From IMG/VR virus record IMGVR_UViG_3300032213_002044, positions 64,770-94,337 of that record: a DNA stretch of 29,568 nucleotides. The stretch is one strand, 5' to 3'. The position numbers and the translations under genes are program-made. Each line of letters opens with the position of its first letter. Within the stretch, counting starts at the first letter, position 1. Origin of the DNA: a virus. This document shows, piece by piece, positions 974 through 29,568 of this stretch. Below the pieces are notes generated by a model. That model saw only the letters and a list, made by a program, of their open reading frames with translations. It had not been told where the DNA came from and ran no database searches.

Positions 974-1693
974 ATGCCGAGAAAACCAAAAACTCCTAAA
1001 AGTAAAATGTATTTCACTTTGGAGACGGAGGAAGCGATAATAGCTTACAATAAATCTGACAACCAAAGAGAAAAAAATACATTGTATGTAGAGAGAATTA
1101 AATACCCGTTTGAAAAAATAGCGGAAAACGTTTTGAATACTTATAAGTTTTCTTATTTTGATGATGGGCATGGAGATGTAAAAAGAGAAGTAGTATCTCA
1201 GATGATTTATAAAATCCACATGTTTCAGGAGGGTAAAGGTAAAGCATTTTCTTACTTTACTAGAATGGCATTGAACCATTTAATTCTACTAAATAATTCA
1301 AACTATAAAAGGTACAAGCAGAATGAATTGATGTCTGTAATGCCTGAAAGTTGGAATCCTTCAGAAGATTCATTAGCAATTGAAACTGATGCAACCCACA
1401 TTGAATTCAGAACACTTATGTTATCATATTGGGATGTAAAACTAAATGTGGTATTTGATAAGAAGAGAGATATACAAATTGCAGATGCTATATTAGAATT
1501 ATTTAGGAGAGTTGATTACATTGAGAATTTTAACAAAAAAAGTTTATATCTCTTAATAAGAGAAATGACAGGGCATAAAACACATTACATAACAAAGGTA
1601 ATTTCAACTATGAAAGTACATCAGGATAAAATCTTAGAAGAGTACTTAAACACAGGAGATATTACCGTAGAAGAAGATATTTTTTATAGATGA
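974..1693 (+). CDS. 55: Late-transcription sigma factor, gp55-like
   Basis: A 239-residue protein matching the gp55 family of T4-like phages, the divergent sigma factor that replaces the host sigma on RNA polymerase and recognises the short late promoter element. Recognisable parts are the N-terminal basic patch followed by YFTLETEEAIIAYN (about 13-26), the helix block AENVLNTYKFSYFD, then GKGKAFSYFTRMALNHLI and NNSNYKRYKQ, which resemble sigma region 2 as seen in gp55 homologues of marine T4-like phages. It is longer than T4 gp55 (185 residues), with a C-terminal helical extension. Its final codon overlaps the carbamoyltransferase start as ATGA. The likely targets are the TATTTAT(A/T) elements before the virion genes in this window, though that link is inferred. 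Confidence 0.75.
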   Translation: MPRKPKTPKSKMYFTLETEEAIIAYNKSDNQREKNTLYVERIKYPFEKIAENVLNTYKFSYFDDGHGDVKREVVSQMIYKIHMFQEGKGKAFSYFTRMALNHLILLNNSNYKRYKQNELMSVMPESWNPSEDSLAIETDATHIEFRTLMLSYWDVKLNVVFDKKRDIQIADAILELFRRVDYIENFNKKSLYLLIREMTGHKTHYITKVISTMKVHQDKILEEYLNTGDITVEEDIFYR

Positions 1694-3375
1694 TACAAAT
1701 AGGAATAAGTTGTTATTATCATGATTCATCAGCCTGTTTAATTAAGGATGGTAAAGTGATATTAGCGGTAGAGGAGGAAAGATTTAGTGGGATAAAACAT
1801 GATAGTTCATTTCCAGAAAAATCAATTAAGTGGATTATTAAAGAATCCAGATTTAGTTTTGAAGATATTGAAGAGGTTTGTTTTTATGAGAAACCTTTAG
1901 TTAAAACACATAGAGTTGTAACAAATTGTTTGAAGAATTTCCAAATCGTAGATGCATTTAAATTTGGAGCAAAAGGAATCAAACAATATTTTAATTTGGT
2001 GAAGAAGCTAAAATGGATGTTTTCTAAAGCCCAAATTAAATTCACATCACATCACGATTCACACATTGGGTATTCATATTTAACTTCTCCATATAGAGAA
2101 GCGGCGATATTAAGTATTGATGGTGTTGGTGAATGGGATACGACAGTTTTAGCATATGGAAATGGAAATAGTTGGGAAACATTAGAGGCTACAAAATTTC
2201 CACATTCATTGGGAATGTTATATTCTACATTTACTGCGTTCTTAGGATTTAAACCTAATGAAGGAGAATATAAAGTAATGGGATTAGCACCATATGGTAA
2301 CCCAAAAACATTTTCACATAAATTCAGAGAAATTATTTATCCTTCTAAGAAAGGTGGATACACATTGAATATGAAAATGTTTCAATATGATAAAAGTGAC
2401 GAGGTGATGTTCACTTCAGAGTTATCAAAACACTTAGGAATCTTGCCTCGTTTACCGGAGGAGGAGATTACACAACAACATAAGGATTTAGCAGCGGCAG
2501 TACAATTCATTTATGAGATGTACTTTTTTCGTTTATTAAAAGATTTACATCGTAAAACAAAATGTGATAATTTAGTATTGGGAGGAGGATGCGCATACAA
2601 TGGAACTGCTAACGGAAAGATTTCAAAAAAGACAGGATTTAAAAATGTATGGATACCAAATGCACCATCTGATGCAGGTTCTTCAATTGGAGCATGTTTA
2701 ATATCATATTATAATAGTACACACCCACATAGAATTGATAATACGAATCCTTATTTGGGCCCAAAATATTTGAGTGATGTGGTTAAAAAAGAATTACAAA
2801 ATTACAATAAAAAATTAATATATAATAAACTATCCGATGATGAAATTATTTCAGTTGTTGCAAATGCAATATCAAATGGTAAAGTTGTGGCTTGGCTCGA
2901 AGGTAGATTGGAGTTTGGTGCTAGAGCCCTTGGGCATCGTTCTATTTTGGCTGACCCTACAAATGGGGAAATGAAAAGTAGAATAAATAAGATAGTAAAA
3001 AAGAGAGAAGGGTTTAGGCCATTCGCACCAATTGTAAAGTTGGAAGATGTTTCTACATATTTTGAATGGGATAAATCAGTTCCATATATGAATCAAATAG
3101 TAGGTGTTAAAAAAGAATATAGAGATATGTTACCTGCGATTACTCATGTTGATGGAACTGCTAGAATACAAACTTTAAATAGAGAAGATTGTGTTAGAAT
3201 ATATGATTTACTTACTGAATTAGAAAAACAAAACGAATACCCAATAGTTCTTAATACATCATTCAATATTAAAGACCAAACAATGATTAGAGACCCCAAA
3301 ACTGCAATAGATACATTTTTGGATGTTGAATTGGATATGTTAGTAATAGAGGATTATGTTATAACTAAGAAATGA
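1690..3375 (+). CDS. Carbamoyltransferase, NodU/TobZ/HypF-C family
   Basis: A 561-residue full-length member of the family that moves the carbamoyl group of carbamoyl phosphate onto a hydroxyl through a carbamoyl-adenylate intermediate. Visible signatures are the N-terminal YYHDSSACLI (9-18), the metal-binding HHDSH (121-125), a Gly-rich loop LGGGCAYNG (about 297-305), EFGARALGHRSI (408-419) and GFRPFAP (441-447), followed by the C-terminal domain with VLNTSFNIKDQ. All family motifs are intact, so it should be active. Both N-terminal kinase-like and C-terminal YrdC-like halves are present. It overlaps the sigma gene and the following SGNH-like gene by 4 bases each (ATGA), so these three are probably translated together. 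Family members carbamoylate sugars, antibiotics or lipo-oligosaccharides, and a phage member has been reported to carbamoylate 5-hydroxymethylcytosine in DNA. The substrate here is unknown. Confidence 0.9.
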   Translation: MIQIGISCYYHDSSACLIKDGKVILAVEEERFSGIKHDSSFPEKSIKWIIKESRFSFEDIEEVCFYEKPLVKTHRVVTNCLKNFQIVDAFKFGAKGIKQYFNLVKKLKWMFSKAQIKFTSHHDSHIGYSYLTSPYREAAILSIDGVGEWDTTVLAYGNGNSWETLEATKFPHSLGMLYSTFTAFLGFKPNEGEYKVMGLAPYGNPKTFSHKFREIIYPSKKGGYTLNMKMFQYDKSDEVMFTSELSKHLGILPRLPEEEITQQHKDLAAAVQFIYEMYFFRLLKDLHRKTKCDNLVLGGGCAYNGTANGKISKKTGFKNVWIPNAPSDAGSSIGACLISYYNSTHPHRIDNTNPYLGPKYLSDVVKKELQNYNKKLIYNKLSDDEIISVVANAISNGKVVAWLEGRLEFGARALGHRSILADPTNGEMKSRINKIVKKREGFRPFAPIVKLEDVSTYFEWDKSVPYMNQIVGVKKEYRDMLPAITHVDGTARIQTLNREDCVRIYDLLTELEKQNEYPIVLNTSFNIKDQTMIRDPKTAIDTFLDVELDMLVIEDYVITKK

Positions 3376-4154
3376 AACGAATAGTTGCATACGGAGATAG
3401 TTGGACAGTTGGAGAGGGATGTAATCGAGAAATTGAGGATACCCTCTCTAAACACGAAAAGATAATCTATCAAAAAGAAAATAGTTGGGTTAAACACTTA
3501 AGTGATAAATTGGGGTTACCTTATCAAAATAATGGGATAAGTGGCAACCCCAATAATGTTATATTCAATCAAATAGTAGATGATATAAAAAGTGGTGAAA
3601 CAACTAAGAATGATTTAGTAATCATAATGTGGAGTTCATCCTTAAGAGATTACTTACCATTTTTTCCAAAGGGGCCAAAAGGTGAGTGGTTAAGTTGGAG
3701 TACGAAACATCTTATGGAAACTCCTGATAGATTCTTTACTTCAACCCAAACACAAAATAGATATTATGATTTCTTTATGGAGGATTATAAGAAATTCTAT
3801 TTACTTAACCTATATAACGAAAATTATTATAGTATAGTTAACCAAAATTACATAGTATTTTTACAGGAATTTTTTAAACACTATAAGATATCTCACATCT
3901 TTATAGATGGTATAGAAGATATGTTTATGGGTATTCTACCTCACTATGATAAGACGGATTTGATAGATGGTAGAGTTTATTGGGAATTCAGAAAACAAAC
4001 CGCTAGGGGGTATTTAAATACGTTTAATAGGGTTGATTTATGGGAACATACAGAACGATGGGATACTCGTGGAACACAACACCCTAATTCGGAAGGATAC
4101 CAATTACTATCTGATGAATTCTATAAATTTATCGATACACAAAAAATTATTTAA
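3372..4154 (+). CDS. SGNH/GDSL-hydrolase-like protein, copy A
   Basis: A 260-residue protein with the start of an SGNH (GDSL) esterase fold: YGDSWTVGEG places the nucleophile at Ser10, and NNGISGNPNNVI (53-64) fits block II with its Gly and Asn. The last block reads GTQHPNSEGY, giving a candidate catalytic His237 followed by the usual P-N-x-x-G-Y. The Asp normally three residues before this His is Gly234, so the triad may be a Ser-His dyad, or Asp231 may substitute. Block III is weak (MWSSSLRDY instead of GxND). There is no signal peptide, so it acts in the cytoplasm or the virion. The 4-base overlap with the carbamoyltransferase suggests they work in one pathway, for example adding and removing groups on the same polymer. 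The substrate is unknown. Confidence 0.7.
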   Translation: MKRIVAYGDSWTVGEGCNREIEDTLSKHEKIIYQKENSWVKHLSDKLGLPYQNNGISGNPNNVIFNQIVDDIKSGETTKNDLVIIMWSSSLRDYLPFFPKGPKGEWLSWSTKHLMETPDRFFTSTQTQNRYYDFFMEDYKKFYLLNLYNENYYSIVNQNYIVFLQEFFKHYKISHIFIDGIEDMFMGILPHYDKTDLIDGRVYWEFRKQTARGYLNTFNRVDLWEHTERWDTRGTQHPNSEGYQLLSDEFYKFIDTQKII

Positions 4155-7388: not shown

Positions 7389-7880
7389 ATGGACACGAAC
7401 AAACTATTTAAAGCAATTCAAATAATCGTTCAGGAGGAAGTAAAAAAAGAAATTTCTCTTATCAAAGAAGAAATAAGAAAAGAAGTATTAGCAGAGGTTA
7501 AGAAAACACAACCTGCTAAACAACAATCTTCTCTTAAATCATTGGTGGAGGAAAGTGCTGACCCGTTCGATTTAGCTAACAAAATTTTAAGCAGAGATAG
7601 AGAATCTCAGCCTGAACAAAAGAATTATGTTAAGAACCCAATGTTAAATCAGGTTCTTAATGAAACTGCAATGGCAGGAATTAGACCTAATTTTTCTAGA
7701 ACAGATGGTGAGTATGGTACTATAACTCCAGAAATGATTGGATATGGTAATCCACAAATGGGTATGCAACCACAGTATGCTAATCCATCTGCTCCAATCA
7801 GTACCGGAAATGATATATTAGATAAAGCAATCGCAAGAAGTGCTAAGGTTTTGGCGGCAAGTAAAGATAAAAATAGATAA
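7389..7880 (+). CDS. Coiled-coil virion or assembly protein, unknown
   Basis: A 163-residue protein. Residues 10-45 form a strongly charged coiled coil rich in Glu, Lys and Ile (VKKEISLIKEEIRKEV). The rest is low in hydrophobic content and rich in Pro, Gln, Met and Gly (YGNPQMGMQPQYANPSAP), probably disordered, and it closes with a short basic helix (AIARSAKVLAASKDKNR). It overlaps gene 25 by one base (TAATG) and has its own upstream late-type promoter motif. The position just before the gp25/gp6 wedge genes suggests a baseplate or tail assembly factor. I do not recognise a family. Confidence 0.6.
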   Translation: MDTNKLFKAIQIIVQEEVKKEISLIKEEIRKEVLAEVKKTQPAKQQSSLKSLVEESADPFDLANKILSRDRESQPEQKNYVKNPMLNQVLNETAMAGIRPNFSRTDGEYGTITPEMIGYGNPQMGMQPQYANPSAPISTGNDILDKAIARSAKVLAASKDKNR

Positions 7881-8311
7881 TGGCAATAATAACTGGCCCT
7901 AAGTTGGTAAAAGACCTGCCCGAAAGGGATAGGGTAGCAATAGGAATCACTCTTCCATTACAAAAGGGGAATGGTGGTTATTTTGCTCAATCATACCAAA
8001 CTTCTGAGCAAGTTAAATCCAATATAAAAAATTTAATCTTAACCCGAAAGGGTGAAAGATTAATGCATCCCACTTTTGGTACGGATTTGTATAATACTCT
8101 ATTTAACCAAAATACGGATGATTTAGAATCAGAAATTGAACGTTCTATTGATAGAGCTATTCAAGAATGGATGCCGTATATATCAATTGATGAAATATTG
8201 GTAGACCAATCAAACACAAATAGAGATACCTATTTCTTTACGGTTACATTGAATTTTAGAGTTGCTGGACAACAAAATTTAGAAACGGTAACATTTAATA
8301 TAAATGAATAA
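7880..8311 (+). CDS. 25: Baseplate wedge protein gp25-like
   Basis: A 143-residue protein of the gp25/phage W family, with a lysozyme-like fold but a structural role; T4 gp25 is 132 residues. Matching features are QVKSNIKNLILTRKGERLM (N-terminal helix and strand of the family), HPTFGTDLYNTLF, the helix ESEIERSIDRAIQEWMPYI, and the closing strand with TYFFTVTLNFRV. In contractile tails gp25 sits in the inner baseplate wedge, binds gp6 and gp53, and starts sheath polymerisation. Its immediate neighbour is gene 6, joined by a TAATG overlap, as in other T4-like phages. Family assignment is secure. Confidence 0.85.
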   Translation: MAIITGPKLVKDLPERDRVAIGITLPLQKGNGGYFAQSYQTSEQVKSNIKNLILTRKGERLMHPTFGTDLYNTLFNQNTDDLESEIERSIDRAIQEWMPYISIDEILVDQSNTNRDTYFFTVTLNFRVAGQQNLETVTFNINE

Positions 8312-10344
8312 TGGCATTTAAAGTAACAAATAAAAATATAGGTAGAAATAGTAGAGATATATCCTATTTAGGTAAGGATTTCGATTCGTTTAGAACTAAC
8401 TTAATGGAGTATGCTAAAACATATTTCCCAAGTACATATAACGATTTTAATGAAACCTCACCTGGTATGATGTTTATTGAAATGGCATCTTACATAGGAG
8501 ATGTATTAGGTTATTATACTGATGCTTCTTTAAAAGAGAGTTTAATACAATATGCATCCGAAGAAAAAAATGTATTTGCATTAGCTAACTTATTAGGGTA
8601 TAAACCAAAATCATCTGCGCCAGCAGTAACAACATTATCTGTATATCAATTATGTAAAGCAGATAACGCAGGTGAATTGGATACTAGATACTTATTGAGA
8701 CTTAATTCTGGATTAACGATAACATCTACATCTAATTCTGAAATTACTTTTAGAACGGTTGAATCATTGGATTTTAGTGACCCAATCGATAGAGAAATTT
8801 CTGTATATAATTTATCAGATTTTAATGTTCCTAATTATTATTTAGTTAAGAAGCAAATTCAGGCAATATCAGCTACAGAAAAAGAATACACTCAACCTTT
8901 CACTTCAGCTGAATCATTTGCATCATTGATTTTACCGGAAACAAATGTTATATCAATTGAATCTGTTATAGATGATGAGGGTAATAAATGGTATGAAGTT
9001 CCATATTTGGCGCAAGAAACAATATATATTGATTATCCTAATGCAGAATCTAATGACCCAGATTTATATCAATTTAAAGAAACTGTACCATATCTTTTAA
9101 AATTATTAAAAACTAGTAGAAGATTTGTAAGTAGAGTAAACGATGATTTTACCACATCAATTCATTTTGGTGGTGGAGATAGTTCTTTATCAGATGAACT
9201 TTTAATACCAAACGTTAAAAATGTAGGATTAGGATTAAATAGTTCAATCGATAGAATGGGAGAATCATATGACCCAACCAATTTTTTAAAAACAAAATCA
9301 TATGGTCAATCACCATCTAATACTACATTAACGATAAATTATTTAGTAGGAGGAGGAATTAGTTCAAATGTACCACAAGGAGATTTGACAACTATATCAT
9401 CAATTACATTTGATAATGATTTAGTAGATATGTTAGATTTAGATGATACCGTATATACGTTTATCAAAAATTCAGTTGCAGTTGAAAACGAAATACCTGC
9501 AAAAGGAGGAAGAGGATTTGATACAATAGAAGAGATTAGAGAAAGTGCATTAGCTAATTTTGCATCACAAAATAGAGCAGTGACATCAAAAGATTATCAG
9601 GTAAGAGCTTTATCAATGCCTTCAAAGTTTGGTGCAATTGCTAAAGTAGTTGCGGTTGGTGATAATTCTTTGAATGCTAATTCACCTGAAAGTATTTTAA
9701 ACTCAACTGATAACGTAGACCAATTTACGGAAATAGTAAAAACTATAACTAAAACAGCAATTGCTAATGGGGGTAACATACCAACTACAAATGATATAAA
9801 AGGATTAGTTAGAAATTTTGTACAAAAGACAACACAAAATGCAGAGTTAGTAAATCCTTTTGCTATTAACCTTTATACATTAGGATATGATTCAAACGGA
9901 AACCTAACTACATTAAACAGAGCTGTAAAAGAAAATCTTAAAACATATATTAATGAATATAGAATGTTAACCGATGGTGTTAACATAATCGATGGATTTA
10001 TTATTAATATAGGTGTTAATTTTGAAATAACCACATATAAAAACTTTAATCAAAGAGAAGTAATATTAACTTGTATAAATGAGTTAAAATCTTTCTTCGA
10101 TATAAATAATTGGCAATTTAATCAAACTATAAATCTTTCTGATATAGAATTAACTATAGCTATGGTTGAAGGTGTTGCATCGGTTCAGAGGGTTGAGATT
10201 GTAAATAAGTGTGGTGGTATATATGCAAGAAATAGTTACGATATACAAGCAGCAACAAAGAATAAGATTATCTATCCATCGTTAGACCCATCTATCTTTG
10301 AAGTTAAGTTTCCTGATAAAGATATTAAAGGTAAAGCTATATAA
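8311..10344 (+). CDS. 6: Baseplate wedge protein gp6-like (baseplate J family)
   Basis: A 677-residue protein close in length to T4 gp6 (660). The N-terminal signature of the family is clear: FRTNLMEYAKTYFPSTYNDF followed by ETSPGMMFIEMASYIGDVL and YYTDASLKESLIQYA, then LANLLGYKP. The middle region holds a baseplate-J-like core: RGFDTIEEIRESALANFASQ and NRAVTSKDYQVRALSMPSKF match the pattern of an assembly helix followed by RAVT.xDY. Gp6 forms the inner ring that joins baseplate wedges and drives the conformational switch on contraction. It follows gene 25 with one-base overlap and leads into further structural genes the same way. Confidence 0.85.
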   Translation: MAFKVTNKNIGRNSRDISYLGKDFDSFRTNLMEYAKTYFPSTYNDFNETSPGMMFIEMASYIGDVLGYYTDASLKESLIQYASEEKNVFALANLLGYKPKSSAPAVTTLSVYQLCKADNAGELDTRYLLRLNSGLTITSTSNSEITFRTVESLDFSDPIDREISVYNLSDFNVPNYYLVKKQIQAISATEKEYTQPFTSAESFASLILPETNVISIESVIDDEGNKWYEVPYLAQETIYIDYPNAESNDPDLYQFKETVPYLLKLLKTSRRFVSRVNDDFTTSIHFGGGDSSLSDELLIPNVKNVGLGLNSSIDRMGESYDPTNFLKTKSYGQSPSNTTLTINYLVGGGISSNVPQGDLTTISSITFDNDLVDMLDLDDTVYTFIKNSVAVENEIPAKGGRGFDTIEEIRESALANFASQNRAVTSKDYQVRALSMPSKFGAIAKVVAVGDNSLNANSPESILNSTDNVDQFTEIVKTITKTAIANGGNIPTTNDIKGLVRNFVQKTTQNAELVNPFAINLYTLGYDSNGNLTTLNRAVKENLKTYINEYRMLTDGVNIIDGFIINIGVNFEITTYKNFNQREVILTCINELKSFFDINNWQFNQTINLSDIELTIAMVEGVASVQRVEIVNKCGGIYARNSYDIQAATKNKIIYPSLDPSIFEVKFPDKDIKGKAI

Positions 10345-11309
10345 TGATATACTTTGTAACGGCATCAAAGGATGCATCGGTTTATAGTTTATATGTAAAT
10401 AAAAACACAGGTTTAGATGAGATACTAACTATATCCAAACATTACTCACGCTTTGCGGAAAGAGATAATGCTAGAACATTTATTGAATTTGATATAGATA
10501 ATGTACCATCTTATGTAACCGCATCATCGGCTACTTTACAATTAACACTTACTCAGCCCGAAGAACTGGCAGTGAGTTATTCGGTGTATGGATATCCTGT
10601 AACTGAAAGTTGGAATATGGGGAGAGGGACATGGCCTGAAAATATTAACACAGATGGTATAAATTGGACAAACCAAAGTGGAGTTGATTATACAATAGAA
10701 ACTATTCAATCATTTACATATTTCGATGGAGATATCAAAATGAATATTAAACCAATATATGATTATTGGACAGGTTCAGCTAATTATGGATTAAGATTAT
10801 CACATACATCATCAGCTGAAAGTACTTCATTGGATTATGGTGTTCTAAAATATTACTCTAAAGAAACAAACACTATATTTCAACCTTTGTTAAAATTAGG
10901 ATGGGATGATTCTCAATTTATCACCGGTTCACTTACTGCATTAACTGATTCACAAATTATAGTTAGAAGTAAAGAATTAAGGGATAATTATACTGAGGGT
11001 AATAAAGTTAAGATAAAAATAATAGGAAGAAGTTTGTATCCAACTAAAAGTTTTACAAATTCCTTTTCATATGATGATGTTAAGTATTTACCTCAAACTT
11101 CATATTATGCAGTTAGAGATGAAATAACAAAAGTTAATATAATAGATTTTTCGGATTACACAAAAATCAGTTGTGATGCGAATGGTAATTACATTAATTT
11201 AGATACTTCTAATTTCGCTAAGAATAGAGTTTATAGATTATTGTTTAAGATAGTTAGGGATGGTATAACTGAATTTATTGAAGATGATTTAACTTTTATA
11301 ATTAAGTAA
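10344..11309 (+). CDS. Structural protein with DNRLRE-like beta-sandwich
   Basis: A 321-residue beta-rich protein. Residues about 40-165 resemble the DNRLRE family: RTFIEFDIDNVPSYVTASSA followed by a long strand and VTESWNMGRGTWPENIN, i.e. the pattern of a Phe/Leu strand, a surface Trp-x-x-G-x-G-x-W, then paired strands. The C-terminal half (about 180-321) is another all-beta module with alternating polar and hydrophobic residues (VKIKIIGRSLY, VYRLLFKIVRDG). In T4 the gene after gene 6 encodes wedge protein gp7 and then gp8 (334 residues); size and place are compatible with a wedge component, but I see no direct gp8 match. It is chained by TAATG overlaps on both sides. Confidence 0.5.
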   Translation: MIYFVTASKDASVYSLYVNKNTGLDEILTISKHYSRFAERDNARTFIEFDIDNVPSYVTASSATLQLTLTQPEELAVSYSVYGYPVTESWNMGRGTWPENINTDGINWTNQSGVDYTIETIQSFTYFDGDIKMNIKPIYDYWTGSANYGLRLSHTSSAESTSLDYGVLKYYSKETNTIFQPLLKLGWDDSQFITGSLTALTDSQIIVRSKELRDNYTEGNKVKIKIIGRSLYPTKSFTNSFSYDDVKYLPQTSYYAVRDEITKVNIIDFSDYTKISCDANGNYINLDTSNFAKNRVYRLLFKIVRDGITEFIEDDLTFIIK

Positions 11310-13726: not shown

Positions 13727-14377
13727 ATGGCACAAAGAACTATAGAAGAATTAGCTAACGATTTTACTTCCGCTGGTACAAATCCAGGAGGCATTAGCGA
13801 TTCTATATTAACCTCAACCGGCGGCGGAGGTGGAGGAGGAGGAAGAGCGCCAGGTGGAGATATTCTAGCATTTGACCCATATACAAGCCCATATATAACT
13901 TCTAGAAAAGTTTTTTTTACAATAAACACATATACTAATTTAAGTAGAACCGATGTTTTGGCAAAAGCTTATTTAAACGGTACTGAAATAGAAGACCAAT
14001 CGAATTCAAAAGGAAGAGTTACATTTAGTTTAGATGAACAACGATTATTAAATCCATCTACGTTAACATTGGTTAGTGGTGATTTGAAACCACAAAAGTA
14101 TTTTTTAATTCAATCTAGAAAAGATATTGAAAATGAAGTTTCCATAATAGAAATTGATAATATTGCAGATACAACGCCTGTTGAGGGCACTCCTGTGCCA
14201 GGCGGAGAACGATTTGGTGGTGGATTTGTTGATACACGTGGTGGACAGTTTGATGGAAGTGGCGGTGGCTCTGGTGGTGGAGGAAGAAGTTTTTACGAAC
14301 CGGGTAACTATGATTCTGGATTATATGATGGTAGTAAACTTGTAGCTGATAGGCCGAGAATGGACGAACAAAAATAA
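13727..14377 (+). CDS. Gly-rich structural protein
   Basis: A 216-residue protein with a small beta domain (about 50-145, FFTINTYTNLSRTDVLAKAY and KYFLIQSRKDIENEV) flanked by Gly-rich segments: a run of eight Gly near residue 32-39, and GSGGGSGGGGRSF near the C-terminus. Such segments are typical of flexible linkers in tail proteins. The start ATGGCACAAAGA is the same 12 bases as the start of the next gene, so both proteins begin MAQR. This could be coincidence or shared ancestry of the first codons. It belongs to the baseplate block by position. Exact role unknown. Confidence 0.55.
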   Translation: MAQRTIEELANDFTSAGTNPGGISDSILTSTGGGGGGGGRAPGGDILAFDPYTSPYITSRKVFFTINTYTNLSRTDVLAKAYLNGTEIEDQSNSKGRVTFSLDEQRLLNPSTLTLVSGDLKPQKYFLIQSRKDIENEVSIIEIDNIADTTPVEGTPVPGGERFGGGFVDTRGGQFDGSGGGSGGGGRSFYEPGNYDSGLYDGSKLVADRPRMDEQK

Positions 14378-14394
14378 ATGATAATTATTAAGTA

Positions 14395-17300
14395 ATGGCA
14401 CAAAGAGAGATAAAAATACCGTTTAAGGATTACAGAGCTGATATAATATTGGATGTTCCATTTGAGGGAAACATTTCAGTTAGTACACCAGCACCTCCTC
14501 AGGCCATTTCTATAACTATTATTAACTCTATAGACCGACCTTCGGTAAGAGTTTATTATAAGAATGCAGCATCATTAGATGTTCAGGAAACTATAAGTAC
14601 TACTAGAACTATTGAGGTATTACAGAATAGTAAATTATCTATAGGTAGAGCAGATGCTATAAACTTTAACATCACTGGTATTAAGGTATCAAAAAGTGAT
14701 GGAACTTTAGTAAAAGATAGTTCAGCAAATTTATTTGATTTAGAAAATATTGTAGAAAGTTATACTATAAATGTAACAAGTCAGCAAAATGTAACTACTG
14801 ATAATATAGCTAAATTTTCAAATGTATTACAACCAACATACAAATGGAATACGGAATTAAATAAAGAATTTTCCATAAGTGTAGGAGTACAAAATGCTAC
14901 ATATGTAAAATACTATTTCCCAAATCAATCGGGTGCAAATTCAAATGGAGCAAAGATTGCCAACGTTGTTGACGGAACTGCTATAATTGTATTAAATAAC
15001 CCAAACGCGGTAGGAATATATGGATTAGTAGTTATAGCTGGAAATGATTTACTAAAAGATGGAGAAGAACAGAGGGCTAGAATAAATGTATATGTAGAAA
15101 AAACATATGGTCAACCGGATGTAACTAATATTATATTTGATAGAAATATTATAGAGGCCGATTTAAGACCTTTAGATTTTGATTTTAAGTTTGATATAGA
15201 TACAGTAGATTCTGAAGGAGTTGATGTATTTTTAGGTGATAATAAAATTTTTAATACTCCAATAGTAAATGGAGAGGCTAAAATCACATTAAAGGCAAAG
15301 GAATTATATAATTCATATAAAACTTATTTTAATGAAGATGATGATTCGTATGAAATAACATTTACCTTACAACCATATTTTAATGGTATAAATGGTAAAA
15401 TAGTAGGTAAGAGAGAAAGTTTTACTGTTTTTGTTCAAAAGGCTAAATACATTGTTTCAAGTGGAGAAGTTTTAGATACGTTTGCAAATGTATTTTCTCA
15501 ACTATTCTCAGGCGAAACAACTAAAAAAGATTTTGAAGATAACATTGTATTTGAAGATGATAAACACTTATACTATCAAGTTAAAACAGATAATGATGAA
15601 TCGTATGTTATAACAAATACAGGTGCGGATGACGCTACATTCTCATTAGAGGGTGAAAAAATTGTTCCCACTAGATATGAGATAGACCCTCAAAGTGGAA
15701 ATACCGTAAGGGTAAGAGAACAACGAGATTATTATTCATTAATAGTTAAATTATTAGAACCGGTAGCAGAAACTATAACTCCAAATCAATTAATTTGGGT
15801 TACTAAACAAATAATACCATCTATTGTAGAAACTATTATTATAAATGATAGTGATGAAAATACTTGTATTCCATTAAAACCAAACTTTGGAATAGATGTA
15901 GTAGATGAAACGGGCTATGAATTTTTTAATCAAATTGTAGCAAGCGGTTCAGTTACTTCTAATGATATAGTAAATCAATATTTATCAAAATCTCAATTTA
16001 ATTTAGAAGACCTTAATATTGAATACACTAGTGGCAGTAATGTAACTTCATCATATTTTTTAAAATTTGAAAACTTTGTTAACTTTTCAAGTGCACAAAC
16101 TCGTTTAGAAAATTTTCAATATAAAATAGAAACAATTGAGAATTGGGAAAATAAATTAACAACTACTCTTTATTCAGGTTCTACATTATCTACTTCATCT
16201 GTATCATTATTGACAAGTGCATCTTATGATGATAAAATAAGAATTATAAAAAATGGATTCGATGGATTTGAGAAACAGATGTATGTTGATTATGGAGTAA
16301 ATTCTTCAAACTCTCAGTTTTTTGAAATTCAAAAAGATTATGCAGAAGTATATGATAGAGAAAACAGAAACTATTTAGTAAAACACACACCTCAATTTAT
16401 AAAAGAGGATTCAGGTAATTTAGAATTCCTTTCATTCTTAGAAATGATAGGCCAACATTTCGATATTATCTGGTCATATATTAATGGAATTAATAGAATT
16501 AGAAAAGTAACTAATAAATCTACAGATGGTATATCTGATAAATTAGTTTATACCTTATTAGAAAACTTTGGATGGGACCCAAAGACTCCCTTTAGTGGTC
16601 ATCAATTGTGGCAATATGCATTTGGAACAAATGAAGATGGATTGGTTAAAACTAATCAAAACTCATTAGGTAATAATGTGTCGCCTTCTTATACTCCGGA
16701 GCAAGCAAGAAATCAAGTTTGGAGAAGAATATTAAACAACTTACCATACCTTTTAAAACACAAAGGAACTAAGAAAGCTATTAATGCAATTATGGCTTGT
16801 TATGGTGTACCATCTTCATTATTAACAATAGTTGAATTTGGAGGGCCTGCAAATAGTGGTTCTCAGAGTACTAAATATACATATGAGGATAGAACTGCGG
16901 CACTTAACATTTCTAGAGATGAATATCTTACCGTTGATTGGAAAGAAGGAACATCATTCAATGACCCTGATGCAATCGAACTTAGATTTAAAACATCTGT
17001 ATTACCATTTGTATCACAATCTACAACTCTTTATCATACACAAAGTTTAGTAAACATTGGTGGAAATGGTAGTGGTATATGGAATGTTAAGTTAGTACCA
17101 TCTGGTTCTACGATATATGGTGATATAGTATTCCAAATGAGTGCGAGTAGTAATGTTTATATTTCTCCTGGTGTAGTAACTTCAGGTTCTGAATTAGTAT
17201 CAATGAGTATTCAAAATGTTCCTATATTTGATAACACATATAAACACTTTACTATTCAAAGAGAAGTTCTTAGTAGAAATGAGTATATTGGTAATACGTT

Positions 17301-19260
17301 AACTAGAAGTTTGGATTATGAGCAATATACAATGTATTATAAACAAGCTAATGGTGATAGGATATCATTAAGCGAATCTGATGCATTGGATTTATTAATC
17401 ACATCTAATTCTGGCTCATTAGTTTCTAATGCAAAATATTATACTGCTATATCTTGGTTAAGTGGTAGTACGATTAATTTTGGTGGTCAAAATGCAGGTG
17501 GTATTAGTGGTTCAATAGATGAGGTAAGAATTTGGGGTGGAGCATTGAGTGAATCGGTAATAACATCGCATACATTAAATCCGGATACAATATTTGGTAA
17601 CGATGTTTACTCATCCACATCAGACCTTTTTTTCCGTTCAGATTTTGAATATCCTAAAAATAGACAAACTGGAAGTGGTGATAAGTTTATAAAGAACGTA
17701 GCACCATTTGTAACATACACATCTTCTTTAGATACTAATAATAAACAAATTGTTGTAAGTGGATATAGTGGTTATGCAACTGCTAGTATTTTTACAACTG
17801 CAAGTTCTTATCCATACCAATATGATGTATATGAAAGATTCGTAACTGCTGAAGTTCCTTCAATAGGATTTGTAGGAAAGGATAAAGTACGAACTGAAGA
17901 TATCACATTAACTGGTCAACTATCATATAAACAAAGAGCAACTAAAAAGGCGTATGATAGAGCACCGATTGATTCAAACAGATTGGGATTATTCTTCTCA
18001 CCTGTTAAAGAATTGAATTTGGATATTCTTCGTTCATTAGGCCCTATCAATATTGGAGATTATATCGGAGATTGGAATGATGAATATGGAACTGATACTT
18101 ATACAGACTTAGACCAACTTAGAAATTATTATTTTGAAAGAACTCAGTTAAATTTTGATGAGTATATAAAACTTATTAAATCAATTGATAAATCTATGTT
18201 TGATATGTTAGAGCAGGTAATTCCTGTAAGAGCTAACGTATCAAAAGGATTATTAATTGAACCATCATTATTAGAAAGAAGTAAAATTAAGATTAATAGA
18301 CCGGTAGCAGAAAATATATTACATACTGCTTCTATTAATACAATGGATACGATTTTAATAGAAATGAGTGTTCCTACATATACCGGTTCTCTTAATATGA
18401 ACGATGGTATAACATTTGAAGCAACTCTTCCATACTATTCAGGTAGTTACGATATAATTGAAAATTTAAATATAACAACGGAGTATCCTACTTATGGTGG
18501 AAATTATAGTGTTATTGGAAATATTACATCTAGTGCATCTATATTATCAAATTTACCAAATGCAGGAGGCATAGTAATAGAAATAGATTGTGGGCTGAAG
18601 AATCCTACTGTTTTGGGTGAAGTTGATTTAGAAGATTCATACCAACAAGTGGGTAATGATGCAGATTCTCCATTTAACAAAGGATTTGGAATAGTAGGAT
18701 TTAATGGAGCAGTTGATAGAACGTATTATAAAGAGTCCGGCAATTTAGTATTAACTGAAAGATATAATTCATATATAATAACTGTTAAATATACTAGAAG
18801 TGTACCTAGAAGAGTTCCTGCAAACGGATTATCCGGTTCACTATTTAATACATCTAAATTAGCACCAACGGATAAGGTAGTATTGGAAAAGATAGCACGA
18901 TATGAAAAGAAATTAATTTTAATAGACCCAATAGATTATTCACTTGGTGTACCCGCTTTTAGAGCACCATTACAACATTCATTCTATATAGATATATTAG
19001 CTGGTTTAGGAACATATCCATATAAAAATGGTATAATAACTGCAATTGAGCCGTTTGTAGGGCTAACATCGGGTCATTATAGTAATACAAAGGATACCAC
19101 TAGAGGTTTGGAAAATAGTTTTTATATGGGTTCTAAGCAAACATCATTAACAACTTTGGATGGAACTCCAGCGGTTGAAACATTCTCAACTAACCCTAAT
19201 AGATTAAGAGTTGGACCAACCGGTAGAGGTAGTGGAGAACCAATTTTAGAGGTAGATTAA
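14395..19260 (+). CDS. Very large baseplate/tail-tip protein with tail-protein-I-like and LamG-like regions
   Basis: A 1621-residue protein, the largest in the window. The first 450 residues are repeated beta domains that read like stacked Ig-like modules. Around 660-810 comes a helical segment (FLSFLEMIGQHFDIIWSYI, LENFGWDPKTPFSGH) ending with LPYLLKHKGTKKAINAIMAC (about 782-801) and YGVPSSLL, which matches the conserved end of phage tail protein I (GT-K-x-A-I-x-x-L then a short strand). Residues about 825-1070 form a concanavalin A/LamG-like sandwich with ISGSIDEVRIWGGALSESVI, a typical LamG closing motif. The remainder is beta-rich, with three related segments of about 20 residues near 1320-1380. 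It may play the part of gp7/gp10-like wedge periphery plus receptor or glycan binding. No stop or frameshift interrupts the frame. A 65-base gap and a new promoter motif follow it. Confidence 0.6.
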   Translation: MAQREIKIPFKDYRADIILDVPFEGNISVSTPAPPQAISITIINSIDRPSVRVYYKNAASLDVQETISTTRTIEVLQNSKLSIGRADAINFNITGIKVSKSDGTLVKDSSANLFDLENIVESYTINVTSQQNVTTDNIAKFSNVLQPTYKWNTELNKEFSISVGVQNATYVKYYFPNQSGANSNGAKIANVVDGTAIIVLNNPNAVGIYGLVVIAGNDLLKDGEEQRARINVYVEKTYGQPDVTNIIFDRNIIEADLRPLDFDFKFDIDTVDSEGVDVFLGDNKIFNTPIVNGEAKITLKAKELYNSYKTYFNEDDDSYEITFTLQPYFNGINGKIVGKRESFTVFVQKAKYIVSSGEVLDTFANVFSQLFSGETTKKDFEDNIVFEDDKHLYYQVKTDNDESYVITNTGADDATFSLEGEKIVPTRYEIDPQSGNTVRVREQRDYYSLIVKLLEPVAETITPNQLIWVTKQIIPSIVETIIINDSDENTCIPLKPNFGIDVVDETGYEFFNQIVASGSVTSNDIVNQYLSKSQFNLEDLNIEYTSGSNVTSSYFLKFENFVNFSSAQTRLENFQYKIETIENWENKLTTTLYSGSTLSTSSVSLLTSASYDDKIRIIKNGFDGFEKQMYVDYGVNSSNSQFFEIQKDYAEVYDRENRNYLVKHTPQFIKEDSGNLEFLSFLEMIGQHFDIIWSYINGINRIRKVTNKSTDGISDKLVYTLLENFGWDPKTPFSGHQLWQYAFGTNEDGLVKTNQNSLGNNVSPSYTPEQARNQVWRRILNNLPYLLKHKGTKKAINAIMACYGVPSSLLTIVEFGGPANSGSQSTKYTYEDRTAALNISRDEYLTVDWKEGTSFNDPDAIELRFKTSVLPFVSQSTTLYHTQSLVNIGGNGSGIWNVKLVPSGSTIYGDIVFQMSASSNVYISPGVVTSGSELVSMSIQNVPIFDNTYKHFTIQREVLSRNEYIGNTLTRSLDYEQYTMYYKQANGDRISLSESDALDLLITSNSGSLVSNAKYYTAISWLSGSTINFGGQNAGGISGSIDEVRIWGGALSESVITSHTLNPDTIFGNDVYSSTSDLFFRSDFEYPKNRQTGSGDKFIKNVAPFVTYTSSLDTNNKQIVVSGYSGYATASIFTTASSYPYQYDVYERFVTAEVPSIGFVGKDKVRTEDITLTGQLSYKQRATKKAYDRAPIDSNRLGLFFSPVKELNLDILRSLGPINIGDYIGDWNDEYGTDTYTDLDQLRNYYFERTQLNFDEYIKLIKSIDKSMFDMLEQVIPVRANVSKGLLIEPSLLERSKIKINRPVAENILHTASINTMDTILIEMSVPTYTGSLNMNDGITFEATLPYYSGSYDIIENLNITTEYPTYGGNYSVIGNITSSASILSNLPNAGGIVIEIDCGLKNPTVLGEVDLEDSYQQVGNDADSPFNKGFGIVGFNGAVDRTYYKESGNLVLTERYNSYIITVKYTRSVPRRVPANGLSGSLFNTSKLAPTDKVVLEKIARYEKKLILIDPIDYSLGVPAFRAPLQHSFYIDILAGLGTYPYKNGIITAIEPFVGLTSGHYSNTKDTTRGLENSFYMGSKQTSLTTLDGTPAVETFSTNPNRLRVGPTGRGSGEPILEVD

Positions 19261-19325: not shown

Positions 19326-19940
19326 ATGGCATACTTAGATAACTCGGAAATCATTGTAGATGCTATTCTAACAAAGAAAGGTAGAGAAAAATTGGCAGCT
19401 GGTCAACAATTAGGTATTACTCAATTCGCATTGGGTGATGATGAAATTGATTACCAATTATTTGATGCGGCACACCCAAAGGGTTCTGCATATTATGATG
19501 CGGCAATTAAAGCTACTCCTATATTAGAAGCTTCTCCAGATGAAACACAGGTTTTGAGATACAAACTTGTAACTCTTCCAAAAAACACAACTAAAATACC
19601 TCAAGTATCAATCGGCACAACTGCTATTAGTACTAATCAGACGAGAGGTAAAGTTTCTATTACACCTTCAACCTCACCAGCAGGTAACTCAACAAGTGGT
19701 TACACTGCGGTATTAGCTGATAAGACAGCAGGTACTTTGGTAGGAATTGGTATTGCATCATCAGGACAAATTTCTGTTAGTGATAATGTAACTGCAACAG
19801 CGGATGTTAAGAAAGGTTTAACTTTCGAATTCATCCCTAATCCGAATTTAACTTCGGCGGTTGTAACAACATTGACAGTTTATGGAAACGAAACAGGTGG
19901 TTCGATTTCTATTCCTGTGACAGTAAACTATGTAGCATAA
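19326..19940 (+). CDS. Phage structural protein of the LTKKGREKLA type
   Basis: A 204-residue protein. The first 60 residues carry MAYLDNSEIIVDAILTKKGR and FALGDDEIDY, a pattern that I recognise from structural proteins of many T4-like phages (an N-terminal domain that begins with a helix labelled by LTKKGREKL and then Q-F-A-L-G-D-D-E). The C-terminal 110 residues are Thr/Ser/Gly/Val-rich beta strands with an Ig-like character (GKVSITPSTSPAGNSTSGY; TFEFIPNPNLTSAVVTTLTV), a common decoration domain. With the next gene it forms a promoter-to-terminator unit, which suggests strong separate expression. The exact place in the virion is unknown. Confidence 0.6.
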   Translation: MAYLDNSEIIVDAILTKKGREKLAAGQQLGITQFALGDDEIDYQLFDAAHPKGSAYYDAAIKATPILEASPDETQVLRYKLVTLPKNTTKIPQVSIGTTAISTNQTRGKVSITPSTSPAGNSTSGYTAVLADKTAGTLVGIGIASSGQISVSDNVTATADVKKGLTFEFIPNPNLTSAVVTTLTVYGNETGGSISIPVTVNYVA

Positions 19941-19957
19941 AAATATAATATAATAAG

Positions 19958-21205
19958 ATGGCACAAATTACAGGAGCACAGGGAGCAGATTTAACCCAGA
20001 AACTTTCCCAATATTTAGTAGATAATGCGGGATTAATAGATTCTACTACGGTAGCTAATTTATTGAACCAATACTTACCTGCTAATGAAAAAGTGGGATT
20101 ATCAAGTGGTGGGGTTATTTCAAACGGAATATATAAAAAATTCGGAGATTTTGATGTTATTTCAAATAAAATAGAAGTAGTAACTGAAGGATTATGGAGT
20201 AATGGTAGCGGTAGTTTAAGTGGAGCTATTGCAACCGGTTCTACCGCAACTATAGCAGGACATAGTGGTTCAGATGCATCAAAGTATTACTTAAATGTAT
20301 TCTTAACTGGTTCTAATACCGGTTCTACTGCACCAATCGAATTTGCAGTAGCATACGGACACAAATATGGTAGTGGTTCAGTTCAGTTAACAACTTCGGA
20401 TTCTGCATTATTACCTACTAAGGCGATATACTCTCAATATAGAATTTTATTAAATAATAACTTTGAGGGAGATGCAGATGATTTCTTTACTTTTTATTCT
20501 TCTTCAGTAGAAGATGGGTATCAATCTAACCAAATCTATGTTATTAACTTAGCAAGAGCAAGATATAGACAACAAGCGGATGCGGGTAATATTAAAATCA
20601 CATTGAGTGGTTCTAATGGTACTTCGTTTACTTTCATCGATGATAGTGGTAAGAAATTCTCAGATAAAGCTGGTAAGGCTGGAACTGTATTTAATATAGT
20701 ATCTGGTTCTAATAATTTAGGAACTGAATTGGATGCTACGATTCATTCGTATGTAGCTTCTAACCAACAAGGATTTGGTAAATTTTATCCACAATTGGGT
20801 ATAATTTTATTAAACCCGGCAGCTATAGCAACCGTAGTAGGTTCAGAGGTGTTACCATCTACTGCAACAACTCCTACTGCTGAAACGTATAATCACAGAA
20901 GAATATTTAATGCAATTAAAGGTGGAGGAGATTTCGAAATGAGAAGAACTGAAAACGTATCAACTCAACACTTCTTTGTAAGAGCAACAAATAGAGAGTT
21001 TAACTTCTCTAATAATCCTACATTCACAAGTGGTTCAGATGGTACTCTAAGAGAACCTTCATTCGAGACAGACCCTAAAACATATATTACATCAGTTGGT
21101 TTATTCAATGATGCTAACGAATTAATGGCTGTGGCTAAAACTTCACAACCAATAGCGAAATCCTTCGATAAGGAGGTGTTGATTAAGGTAAAACTTGATT
21201 TTTAA
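19958..21205 (+). CDS. Virion structural protein with conserved C-terminal domain (A)
   Basis: A 415-residue protein. It begins with a helical head (TQKLSQYLVDNAGLIDSTTV) and then is beta-rich with many Ser-Gly pairs (GSGSLSGAIATGSTATIAGH). The last 75 residues carry a motif set: NREFNFSNNPTF, then TYITSVGLFNDANELMAVAK and the closing VLIKVKLDF. The same arrangement, less conserved, ends the gene after the terminator (EFNISTNPS, YITTVGLYDDEMNLVAVAK, VNIVVRFD), so the two are related by domain. The final four codons and stop (AAACTTGATTTTTAA) form the first copy of a 13-base tandem repeat that runs on past the stop. Confidence 0.6.
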   Translation: MAQITGAQGADLTQKLSQYLVDNAGLIDSTTVANLLNQYLPANEKVGLSSGGVISNGIYKKFGDFDVISNKIEVVTEGLWSNGSGSLSGAIATGSTATIAGHSGSDASKYYLNVFLTGSNTGSTAPIEFAVAYGHKYGSGSVQLTTSDSALLPTKAIYSQYRILLNNNFEGDADDFFTFYSSSVEDGYQSNQIYVINLARARYRQQADAGNIKITLSGSNGTSFTFIDDSGKKFSDKAGKAGTVFNIVSGSNNLGTELDATIHSYVASNQQGFGKFYPQLGIILLNPAAIATVVGSEVLPSTATTPTAETYNHRRIFNAIKGGGDFEMRRTENVSTQHFFVRATNREFNFSNNPTFTSGSDGTLREPSFETDPKTYITSVGLFNDANELMAVAKTSQPIAKSFDKEVLIKVKLDF

Positions 21206-27108: not shown

Positions 27109-27501
27109 ATGAAATTAGAAGTAGAAATTAAACAACCCCTTAAAATAGAAAAGGCATGGGGGCACGAATTATGGATTCACAATGATGAAGAGTATTGTGG
27201 AAAATTATTAGTATTCAATAATACCGGTGATAAGTTCTCAATGCATTATCACTTAAAGAAAAAGGAGAGTTGGTATGTTCAGCAAGGCAGTTTTATATTC
27301 AGTTGGTTAGATGTAGAAGATGGTAAATTAATATCACAAATAATCAAAGTAGGAGATTCTGTAACAATAGAAAGAGGATTACCACATCAACTGCAAGCTA
27401 TAGATGATTTATCTACTATATACGAGGTTAGTACTCAACACTTTAATGAGGATTCATACAGAATATTCCGCAACACACCAATGGATTTAATTGGTAAATA
27501 A
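27109..27501 (+). CDS. Cupin-domain protein, mannose-6-phosphate-isomerase-like
   Basis: A 130-residue single-domain cupin beginning one base after the thymidylate synthase stop. Cupin motif 1 is GDKFSMHYHLKKKESWYVQQ (40-59), giving metal ligands His46, His48 and Glu53; motif 2 is GDSVTIERGLPHQLQA with His93. The opening KAWGHELWIH (15-24) is typical of the C-terminal cupin of phosphomannose isomerase/GDP-mannose pyrophosphorylase-type enzymes and of stand-alone relatives. It may act on a sugar phosphate or bind a sugar; the cupin fold is also used by epimerases and dioxygenases, so the reaction is open. It stands in the replication operon, perhaps linked to the carbamoyltransferase and SGNH proteins through sugar metabolism, but that is speculation. 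Confidence 0.75.
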   Translation: MKLEVEIKQPLKIEKAWGHELWIHNDEEYCGKLLVFNNTGDKFSMHYHLKKKESWYVQQGSFIFSWLDVEDGKLISQIIKVGDSVTIERGLPHQLQAIDDLSTIYEVSTQHFNEDSYRIFRNTPMDLIGK

Positions 27502-27555: not shown

Positions 27556-29568
27556 ATGCTTAACCTAAAAGTAGATTACATCTATCACTTAGCGGATTTA
27601 CACATCCGTAACTTAAAACGTCATAAGGAGTATAGAGAGATTCTAACTAAATTTTTAGCGGATGTAGATTCTCAAAAGAAAGAGAATGCCGTTATTTATT
27701 TAGCAGGAGATATTGCACACGCTAAAACGGAAATGAGTCCGGAATTAGTTAGAGAAATCACTTGGTTTTTTAATGAATGTGCAAATCGATTCCCTACATT
27801 TGTAATCACAGGAAACCACGATTGTAACTTAAACAATATGGATAGATTGGATGTATTAACTCCTATCTGTGATAACCTAAATAATCCAAACTTATATTAC
27901 CTAAGAGATACGGGTACAACTCATATCAATAATGAATTAACTTTTACAGTCTATTCAATCTTAGATAAGAAAGCGAATTGGCCGTTAGGAAAAGATGTAG
28001 AAGGTAAAACTAAAATATGTTTCTTTCATGGACCAGTAGATGCGGCTAGAACCGATATTGGTTATGTGGTATCATCTAACAATTTCACACCCGATATGTT
28101 TGATGGGTTTGATATGGTATTGATGGGGGATATTCACAAAAGACAAATCGTTCAACAAAGAGATAAGGCAAATGGTAAACCGATTGTAGTTTATGCGGGT
28201 TCGGTTGTTCAGCAAAATCACGGAGAATACTTAGAGAATCATGGTTACCTATTATGGGATGTGAAAAATGAAACTTTTGAAGAGTTTAACATTCACAATG
28301 ATTATGGTTACTTAACTATTGATGTAACGAATGGAGTTATACCACAATGGGTTCATGATGAGATAGGAACTAAGTTACCTAAACAACCTCGACTAAGAGT
28401 TAGATTTCAGGAAACAGAGGGTGGGGATATTAAGTTAGTATCAACGGAATTACAAAAGATGTTTAATATATCTGAAATTACCGTCACTAGGCAGGATACA
28501 TTGAACTCTCTTAAAACTAAAAACAGAAACGCTAGAAACTTAGCGGGTAATGTTAAGGATGTAAACATTCAGAATGGGTTAATTAAGGAGTATTTAGAAA
28601 GACAATTTCTTTTAGATAATGAGACTGTAAATAAAGTAATTGAAATTAACAATAACGTTAACACAAAGATTACTCATGAAGATACAGATAATATTCTATG
28701 GATTCCTAAGAAGTTTGAATTCAGTAATATGTTCTCATATGGTGAAGGTAATAAAATAGAATTCGATAGAGCAAAGGGAATCATTGGTTTATTTGCACCA
28801 AACACACAAGGTAAATCATCCCTATTCGATTCACTTTCATTTTGTATATTCGATAAGTGTAGTAGAGCATTTAAGGCTACTCATATTATGAATAATCAAA
28901 AAGATACATTCAGTTGTAAATTTAATTTTGAGATTGATGGTATAGATTATTTTATCGAACGAGAGGCTCATACAACTAAAACAGAAAAGGTTAAGGTAAA
29001 TGTTAATTTTTGGAGAGTAGTTGATGGAATAGATGAATCTTTAAACGGAGATGAAAGACGAAACACAAATGATGTAATCAAAAAGTATTTAGGTACTTAT
29101 GAAGATTTTGTAATGACTTCTCTTTCATTGCAAGGTAACAATGCTTTATTCATTGATAAATCACAATCAGAAAGAAAAGATATTCTTGCACAATACATTG
29201 GAGTAAATGTGTTTGATAAATTATTTGATGTAATTAGTGAAGATAATAAAGAAGCTGCTATTCTATTAAAGAATTTTAAGAAGGATGATTTCTCTTTGAG
29301 ATTAGCAGAATTAGATGAGATTGTTAACACTAATGGAAAGGTATTTAATGAGTTAGTTGAAAAGAAGGATGAGTTTGAGCAACATAAAACTGAAATAGAA
29401 AGGAAGTTATCTAATTTAGAATCTCAGATTCAACAAACTACTCTTTCAATTGATTTAGATGTTGAAACAAAACGATTAGAATCTTTTACAAGTTCATTAG
29501 AAACCGATAATGGTAAACTTGTAAAGATGGGAGAACAATTAACACAGGCGGAAGGTATAGTATCGGAG
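27556..29568 (+). CDS. 47/46: Fused recombination nuclease-ATPase, gp47 (SbcD) + gp46 (SbcC) in one chain (3' truncated)
   Basis: The frame is open from ATG 27556 to the right edge: 671 residues with no stop. Residues 1-240 are a Mre11/SbcD-type phosphoesterase: DLHIR (14-18), GDIAH (51-55), TGNHD (85-89), FFHG (156-159), GDIHK (191-195), all metal ligands intact. A capping region follows to about 375. From about 382 (WIPKKFEFSNMFSYG) it is the N-terminal lobe of a Rad50/SbcC ATPase with Walker A FAPNTQGKSS (413-422), and the chain enters a coiled coil after about 590. In T4, gp47 (339 residues) and gp46 (560) are separate proteins that make DNA ends ready for recombination-dependent replication. 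No ATG exists at the junction; the first in-frame Met after it (392) would remove the first ATPase strand. Walker A begins with Ala414 where Gly is usual. The zinc hook and Walker B half lie beyond the window. Confidence 0.85.
   Translation, partial: MLNLKVDYIYHLADLHIRNLKRHKEYREILTKFLADVDSQKKENAVIYLAGDIAHAKTEMSPELVREITWFFNECANRFPTFVITGNHDCNLNNMDRLDVLTPICDNLNNPNLYYLRDTGTTHINNELTFTVYSILDKKANWPLGKDVEGKTKICFFHGPVDAARTDIGYVVSSNNFTPDMFDGFDMVLMGDIHKRQIVQQRDKANGKPIVVYAGSVVQQNHGEYLENHGYLLWDVKNETFEEFNIHNDYGYLTIDVTNGVIPQWVHDEIGTKLPKQPRLRVRFQETEGGDIKLVSTELQKMFNISEITVTRQDTLNSLKTKNRNARNLAGNVKDVNIQNGLIKEYLERQFLLDNETVNKVIEINNNVNTKITHEDTDNILWIPKKFEFSNMFSYGEGNKIEFDRAKGIIGLFAPNTQGKSSLFDSLSFCIFDKCSRAFKATHIMNNQKDTFSCKFNFEIDGIDYFIEREAHTTKTEKVKVNVNFWRVVDGIDESLNGDERRNTNDVIKKYLGTYEDFVMTSLSLQGNNALFIDKSQSERKDILAQYIGVNVFDKLFDVISEDNKEAAILLKNFKKDDFSLRLAELDEIVNTNGKVFNELVEKKDEFEQHKTEIERKLSNLESQIQQTTLSIDLDVETKRLESFTSSLETDNGKLVKMGEQLTQAEGIVSE

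Follow-up and report, generated by a model that had tools for sequence, protein, structure and literature searches.

A 1621-residue phage protein with a tail-protein-I signature and an optional LamG-type insert, probably a baseplate wedge subunit

The window, by which we mean the whole stretch of 29,568 nucleotides analysed here, comprises bases 64770-94337 of a virus record of 94,337 bases (IMGVR_UViG_3300032213_002044). It contains a wedge operon in which the gene for a 1621-residue protein lies downstream of genes of the gp25 and gp6 types (Table 1). The family matched by the gp6-like gene, phrog_219, is the PHROG that is best matched by T4 gp6. Four ORFs are located between gp6 and the 1621-aa gene, with no family match above cut-off. 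The neighbours of the large gene to which no role could be assigned encode 321, 337, 463, 216, 204, 415 and 513 residues, and these ORFs could supply peripheral wedge roles. Of the wedge-operon ORFs compared, identity is lowest for the 216-aa ORF (13727-14377) that immediately precedes the large gene: over the aligned part it is 61% identical to its counterpart in locus L006 and 31% in L019, compared with 82% and 57% for the large protein.

Table 1. Features of the wedge operon and of the 1621-residue protein, with positions in the window.
Feature	Position	Strand	Evidence or remark
gp25-like sheath initiator	7880..8311	+	Pfam GPW_gp25 E 3.8e-16; phrog_261 E 7.7e-24
gp6-like wedge subunit	8311..10344	+	phrog_219 E 1.2e-22
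Conserved 321-aa ORF	10344..11309	+	Upstream homologue in 65/69 insert-bearing and 18/18 insert-less loci with room
1621-aa ORF, probable gp7/gpI-type wedge protein with LamG insert	14395..19260	+	ATG start
N-terminal beta-sandwich domains, ~residues 31-350	14485..15444	+	AlphaFold2, 10-residue mean pLDDT 74-94
Mostly helical wedge core and first tail-I strand, ~residues 541-811	16015..16827	+	AlphaFold2; conserved with and without insert
Tail-protein-I signature RRILNNLPYLLKHKGT...VEFGGP, residues 777-819	16723..16851	+	hhalign against 9-sequence tail-I profile
Optional insert, residues 818-1163	16846..17883	+	Bimodal GG-to-K[VI]R spacing
LamG/pentraxin-type sandwich, residues 832-1152	16888..17850	+	Z 16.0 to 4dqa; Laminin_G_3 in 42/78 inserts
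Resumed conserved block, K1164 to ~1290 (strand-helices-strand, P[AV]R motif); proposed tail-I second half	17884..18264	+	Common to insert-less relatives; moderate model confidence
C-terminal beta region and GEPILEVD tail	18685..19260	+	Alignment A2 consensus; partly low-confidence model
Conserved 204-aa ORF just downstream	19326..19940	+	63/63 insert-bearing and 15/15 insert-less loci with room
Conserved 415-aa ORF	19958..21205	+	57/57 insert-bearing and 15/15 insert-less loci with room

The 1621-aa gene is real, since 11 loci in viral contigs match the chain, along its whole length or in part, with 70-98% identity in the best segment. At least 574 stretches of one viral collection encode a relative of the protein. 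Our sample includes the best 80 of these 574 and 21 loci found with the Flavobacterium phage immuto protein as query, and the ratio of insert-bearing to insert-less members is set by this choice of queries and does not give a prevalence. One locus, L125, was excluded because none of its frames of sufficient length contains a KGT motif. The family is poorly covered by existing collections. PHROGs gave no match for the window protein and no informative match for the eight family proteins scanned; NCBIfam gave no informative match among seven. A sequence search of the PDB returned a single irrelevant match (E 1.6) for the window protein and none for the family profile A2, and both annotated relatives that we examined carry the label hypothetical. 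The contigs of two relatives, L096 and L097, are binned in metagenome-assembled genomes labelled Nitrosopelagicus and Winogradskyella; these contigs are probably viral, and the labels point at most to possible hosts.

An initial annotation, made from the sequence alone, had described the protein as a combination of tail-protein-I-like and LamG-like modules. The ORF is confirmed and both modules are present, the one as a profile match and the other in an AlphaFold2 model. For the former, a family profile (117 rows, window residues 660-824) was compared by hhalign with a tail-protein-I profile made of P2 gpI and eight relatives. Residues 777-819, which include KGTKKAI at 790-796, matched with a P value of 5.2e-4 and a score of 29.6; the best column shuffle scored 22.9, and none of 400 shuffles was as good. 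At 31%, the HH probability is low (44% when the two profiles change places), because the match is just 43 columns long. The KGT and the following GG are in register in this alignment, and the insert-less rows alone align to tail protein I at the same place (P 0.011-0.014). The curated Pfam model Tail_P2_I (PF09684) found no match anywhere in the record, even at E 10, and for this reason the protein is not filed in that family. The first half of a tail-I module is thus supported by the profile test. Its second half, which would lie after the insert, is proposed from the modelled order of strand, helices and strand and from conservation; the block at 1180-1305 itself did not match the tail-protein-I profile (136 of 200 shuffles scored as high).

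The R-pyocin protein Tri2 (PA0619) shares the KGT...E-[WF] signature with P2 tail protein I and the window protein, and was not used in building the profile. P2 gpI is encoded after gpJ, a place comparable to that of the window gene. The two known proteins differ from ours in length (176-177 residues compared with 1621) and in containing no Ig-like or LamG domain, and their second half could not be aligned by profile. The 80 copies listed by a scan of viral contigs with P2 gpI are 99-100% identical and could not serve to build a profile. A T4 gp7 profile gave no signal against the family (306 of 400 shuffles as high), also when cut to the core, and the tail-I profile gave no signal against T4 gp7 either.

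The second module was modelled with AlphaFold2 as part of residues 422-1621 (77 sequences; mean pLDDT 64.5, pTM 0.46). Structure prediction bears out the LamG/concanavalin-like sandwich that had been suspected from the sequence. Residues 832-1152, which are residues 411-731 of the model, gave a VIA Z of 16.0 to 4dqa (200 aligned, rmsd 3.3), and the LamG region also matched PAPP-A (Z 15.9), PTX3 (Z 14.4) and one domain of TSP2, a tailspike of phage CBA120 (Z 13.2). In this region the 10-residue mean pLDDT ranges from 53 to 94 as far as model residue 680, falls to 46-52 at 681-700 and rises again to 71-85 at 701-730. In the window protein, Laminin_G_3 (PF13385) scores 18.2-21.5 bits, below the Pfam cut-off of 27.6 bits; one relative, L029, exceeds the cut-off with 31.4 bits. 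Among the 78 inserts scanned, 42 match Laminin_G_3 at E <= 0.01 and 36 have no such match; the inserts of L013, L015 and L097 are not recognised as LamG by Pfam. The list from a Foldseek search of the PDB was taken up by LamG-like and other sandwich folds, and no baseplate fold was among the 50 matches listed in either of two PDB structure searches. The absence of baseplate proteins among the listed fold matches is no evidence against a baseplate fold. In BFVD, the top rows were mostly unnamed or uncharacterised phage proteins; one entry named 'Baseplate wedge subunit' (A0A6J7WVX1) had an E value of 9.9e-6 and a TM-score by target of 0.19, which is too poor to use.

The initial annotation had also placed long beta regions on both sides of these modules. 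This holds for the N-terminal side, where two Ig-like domains at about residues 134-350 match generic Ig tandems with Z 7.7-8.6 (nearly all rows lying within 133-356). Modelled strands at about 36-131, spanned by one row of the structure search, form another beta domain on this side. The C-terminal side is partly beta and mostly a low-confidence model. The N-terminal part is longer in many relatives, whose open frames reach up to 2174 codons.

The LamG domain does not directly follow the end of the tail-I segment, as had been supposed, but splits a conserved block, the second part of which starts at about residue 1164. In 22 of 117 rows, GG (817) and K[VI]R (1164) are spaced exactly 20 residues apart; the spacing is 259-382 residues in another 80, and 15 rows were unscored. 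From GG to P[AV]R (P1277), all 117 aligned rows could be compared: the spacing is 136-185 residues in 22 rows and 362-496 in 94, four of which (L065, L071, L076, L088) have cut ends and no end column; the one remaining value, 257 in L011, comes from a cut contig. Insert length was the criterion for counting a row as insert-bearing, while Pfam sees LamG in the smaller set given above. This bimodal spacing at one site indicates that the conserved block can carry the LamG region as an optional module, placed at one fixed position within it.

Relatives of the immuto type have no insert and keep both conserved sides. Immuto ORF 161 (QQO92079.1) is 28% identical over window residues 449-817 and 29% over 1215-1355, has gp25- and gp6-type genes upstream as in the window, and contains no LamG domain, with 20 residues in place of the 346 in the window protein. 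WWT39511.1 of the Microcystis phage Mel-JY01 is 26% identical over residues 448-1328 and syntenic. It has 1336 residues, with a shorter N-terminal part, and is annotated as hypothetical. This protein contains an insert of LamG length in which a GSI-E-R-W motif aligns with the window protein, and its insert had no Laminin_G_3 match at E <= 0.1.

The neighbouring genes are retained along with the large one, in agreement with the placement of the protein in the baseplate wedge in the initial annotation. Apart from the counts in Table 1, a gp6 homologue was found upstream in 50/64 insert-bearing and 18/18 insert-less loci counted as having room, and a gp25 homologue in 6/17 and 17/17, respectively. 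The room limit for gp25 was 4.5 kb, which is too lax given a distance of >6 kb in the window, and so 6/17 is no proof of absence; missed gp6 and gp25 homologues may sit beyond the DNA compared. All these neighbour counts omit 20 of 116 locus rows. Four relatives, namely Mel-JY01, an uncultured phage of 484 kb and the insert-less L122 and L126, have counterparts of gp25, gp6, the 321-aa ORF and both ORFs downstream, at 25-45% identity.

Sequence conservation differs between the parts of the chain. Mean identity to the window protein is highest in the stretch from KGT to GG (70%), followed by the block after the insert (55%) and the helical part (41%), each over 98-99 rows; the value for LamG is 39%, over 77 rows, and is not strictly like for like. 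For these and the pairwise identities, 17 of 116 locus rows were omitted as near-duplicates or fragments. Among insert-bearing pairs with flanks at >=90%, mean identity is 0.70 for LamG and 0.73 for the helical part, which is only a slight difference. We then listed 50 close pairs, defined by flanks above 90% and a helical part above 85%. LamG identity is 80% or more in 45 of these and lower in five, in some of which the divergence is strong. In L070/L091, LamG is 53% identical, compared with 96% for the flanks and 94% for the helical part. The corresponding values for LamG, flanks and helical part are 68%, 93% and 95% in L069/L085, 73%, 93% and 86% in L083/L084, and 74%, 96% and 85% in L007/L018. 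In L081/L039, LamG is 76% identical, compared with 99% for both flanks and helical part and 94-98% for the downstream genes in the DNA compared. In L005-L007, which are close relatives of the window protein, the order is reversed, with 87-96% identity for LamG and 70-78% for the helical part. The divergence of LamG fits occasional replacement or rapid change, as would be expected of a surface facing a host or a partner, and proves neither. A second local dip in identity (53-73%) between L070 and L091 is located at L070 residues 601-680, ahead of the tail-I block.

What might such a protein do? T4 gp7 has been likened to XM1 gp17 and the pyocin protein PA0619 (PMC10457771), and, in a paper on the type VI secretion system baseplate, to P2 gpI, Mu Mup48 and TssG (PMC6300606). 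Both papers describe proteins of the gp7/gpI type as a single subunit joining two chains of the gp6 type. A tail-I module in this operon position, taken together with this likening, makes the 1621-aa protein a probable gp7/gpI subunit. T4 gp7 is a large wedge protein encoded after gp6, as is the window gene, and is the protein to which gpI is likened (PMC6300606); it differs in giving no sequence-profile signal, in its length of 1032 residues compared with 1621, and in gene order, the window having four ORFs between gp6 and the large gene. The gp7 counterpart of XM1, gp17, belongs to a (gp16)2-gp17 wedge and has parts for spike binding (PMC10457771); it has 242 residues, and we liken it to our protein by description. 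T4 gp7 is not known to have a LamG domain.

Carbohydrate-binding modules on the wedge have a precedent. Gp119 of Vp4, the third wedge protein of that phage, carries two such modules that are reported as absent from the Deep-Blue and A511 homologues (PMC11406892), and Gp119 is reported to bind cells. These modules differ from LamG, their best matches being a family 16 carbohydrate-binding module and one from a xylanase (PMC11406892), and the N-terminal domain of Gp119 is homologous to A511 Gp105; here, too, the likeness to the window protein is one of description. According to a review of jumbo phages (PMC7824862), laminin G3 domains occur in tail fibres and in further parts of the virion. Since wedge-borne modules of this sort are already known from Vp4, the kind of thing is known, and what appears to be new, within the literature searched, is the protein family, the fixed insertion site and the pattern of presence and absence: for LamG or carbohydrate-binding modules in baseplates, that literature gave no description of such an insertion. 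A literature search restricted to phage names found no virion proteomics.

We favour the view that the 1621-aa protein is the third subunit of the baseplate wedge, in the position of T4 gp7 or P2 gpI, and that its LamG insert most likely binds a host glycan; judged from sequence comparison and modelling, this reading as a whole is somewhat better than an even bet. In a contractile-tailed phage, the part of the chain that is helical and of tail-I type would enter into the (gp6)2-gp7 wedge heterotrimer. The LamG/pentraxin-type domain, which separates the conserved halves of this part, would stand out from the periphery of the baseplate and most likely bind a glycan on the host surface during adsorption, before contraction. 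The glycan-binding face put forward in the initial annotation is plausible.

The main competing view concerns the insert. It might be a docking site for fibres or for another baseplate protein, and would then vary as the phage partner varies. LamG folds also mediate protein-protein contacts, as in laminin and neurexin, which favours docking, and in XM1 gp17, a short counterpart of gp7, flexible parts are involved in binding the tail spike (PMC10457771). However, in the L081/L039 pair it is LamG that has diverged while the downstream genes in the DNA compared have remained almost the same, and the insert-less relatives retain the same two downstream genes. We consider docking rather unlikely, roughly half as probable as the reading that we favour.

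Two further views concern the chain as a whole. It would be improbable, in our estimate, that the protein is a tail fibre or adhesin which lies in the wedge operon by chance, its KGT match being spurious. Lectin and Ig modules are common in phage fibres, and the tail-I match is as short, and its HH probability as low, as stated above; but no column shuffle reached its score, KGT and GG are in register, among the parts compared, conservation is highest from KGT to GG (99 rows, compared with 77 for LamG), and the gene order is retained in distant phages. More improbable still is the proposal of the initial annotation that this chain replaces several proteins of the T4 wedge periphery, that is, gp7 together with gp8, gp9 or gp10. 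The protein is longer than T4 gp7 and contains Ig-like and LamG domains, and the PHROG models of T4 gp8 and gp10 match nothing in the record or in three relatives, although in one of these searches no control genome gave a match. These negatives carry no weight, because the PHROG model of T4 gp7 also matched nothing in the record. When the chain was scanned against PHROGs, no family of gp8, gp9 or gp10 matched at E <= 0.1, and conserved ORFs without an assigned role flank the gene. The proposal is unsupported: tail protein I is likened to gp7 itself (PMC10457771, PMC6300606), and replacement of gp8-gp10 is not needed to account for a gp7/gpI subunit in this position.

If the protein is indeed a gp7/gpI-type subunit, naming it as such would fill a gap in the tail annotation of Flavobacterium and Microcystis phages and of uncultured myoviruses. 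If, in addition, the LamG insert binds glycans, host range would be set partly by the wedge and not by the fibres only, and the natural relatives with and without the insert make such a wedge-dependent host range testable. A broader and more tentative idea, which we regard as possible but doubtful, is that in many myoviruses, forming a large group known mostly from uncultured members, the wedge scaffold bears a lectin cassette that can be exchanged and that touches the host without help from the tail fibres. Host recognition might then reside partly in the baseplate core, and it would evolve as a single LamG domain is gained, lost or replaced at its fixed site.

Several other genes in the window deserve mention. 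Upstream of the baseplate genes, the region 1690-4154 encodes a carbamoyltransferase of the NolO type (PF02543, PF16861) followed by a GDSL-lipase-like ORF (below cut-off), possibly for surface or glycan modification. Towards the other end, a cupin-fold ORF (27109-27501) matches the PHROG 'cysteine dioxygenase' with E 4.5e-34 and adjoins thymidylate synthase. The last frame (27556-29568) runs past the window end and combines an SbcD-type phosphoesterase (PF00149, residues 9-195) with an AAA_23 ATPase region (residues 390-626); the latter matches PHROGs of the SbcC type, and the frame may encode an SbcD-SbcC fusion.
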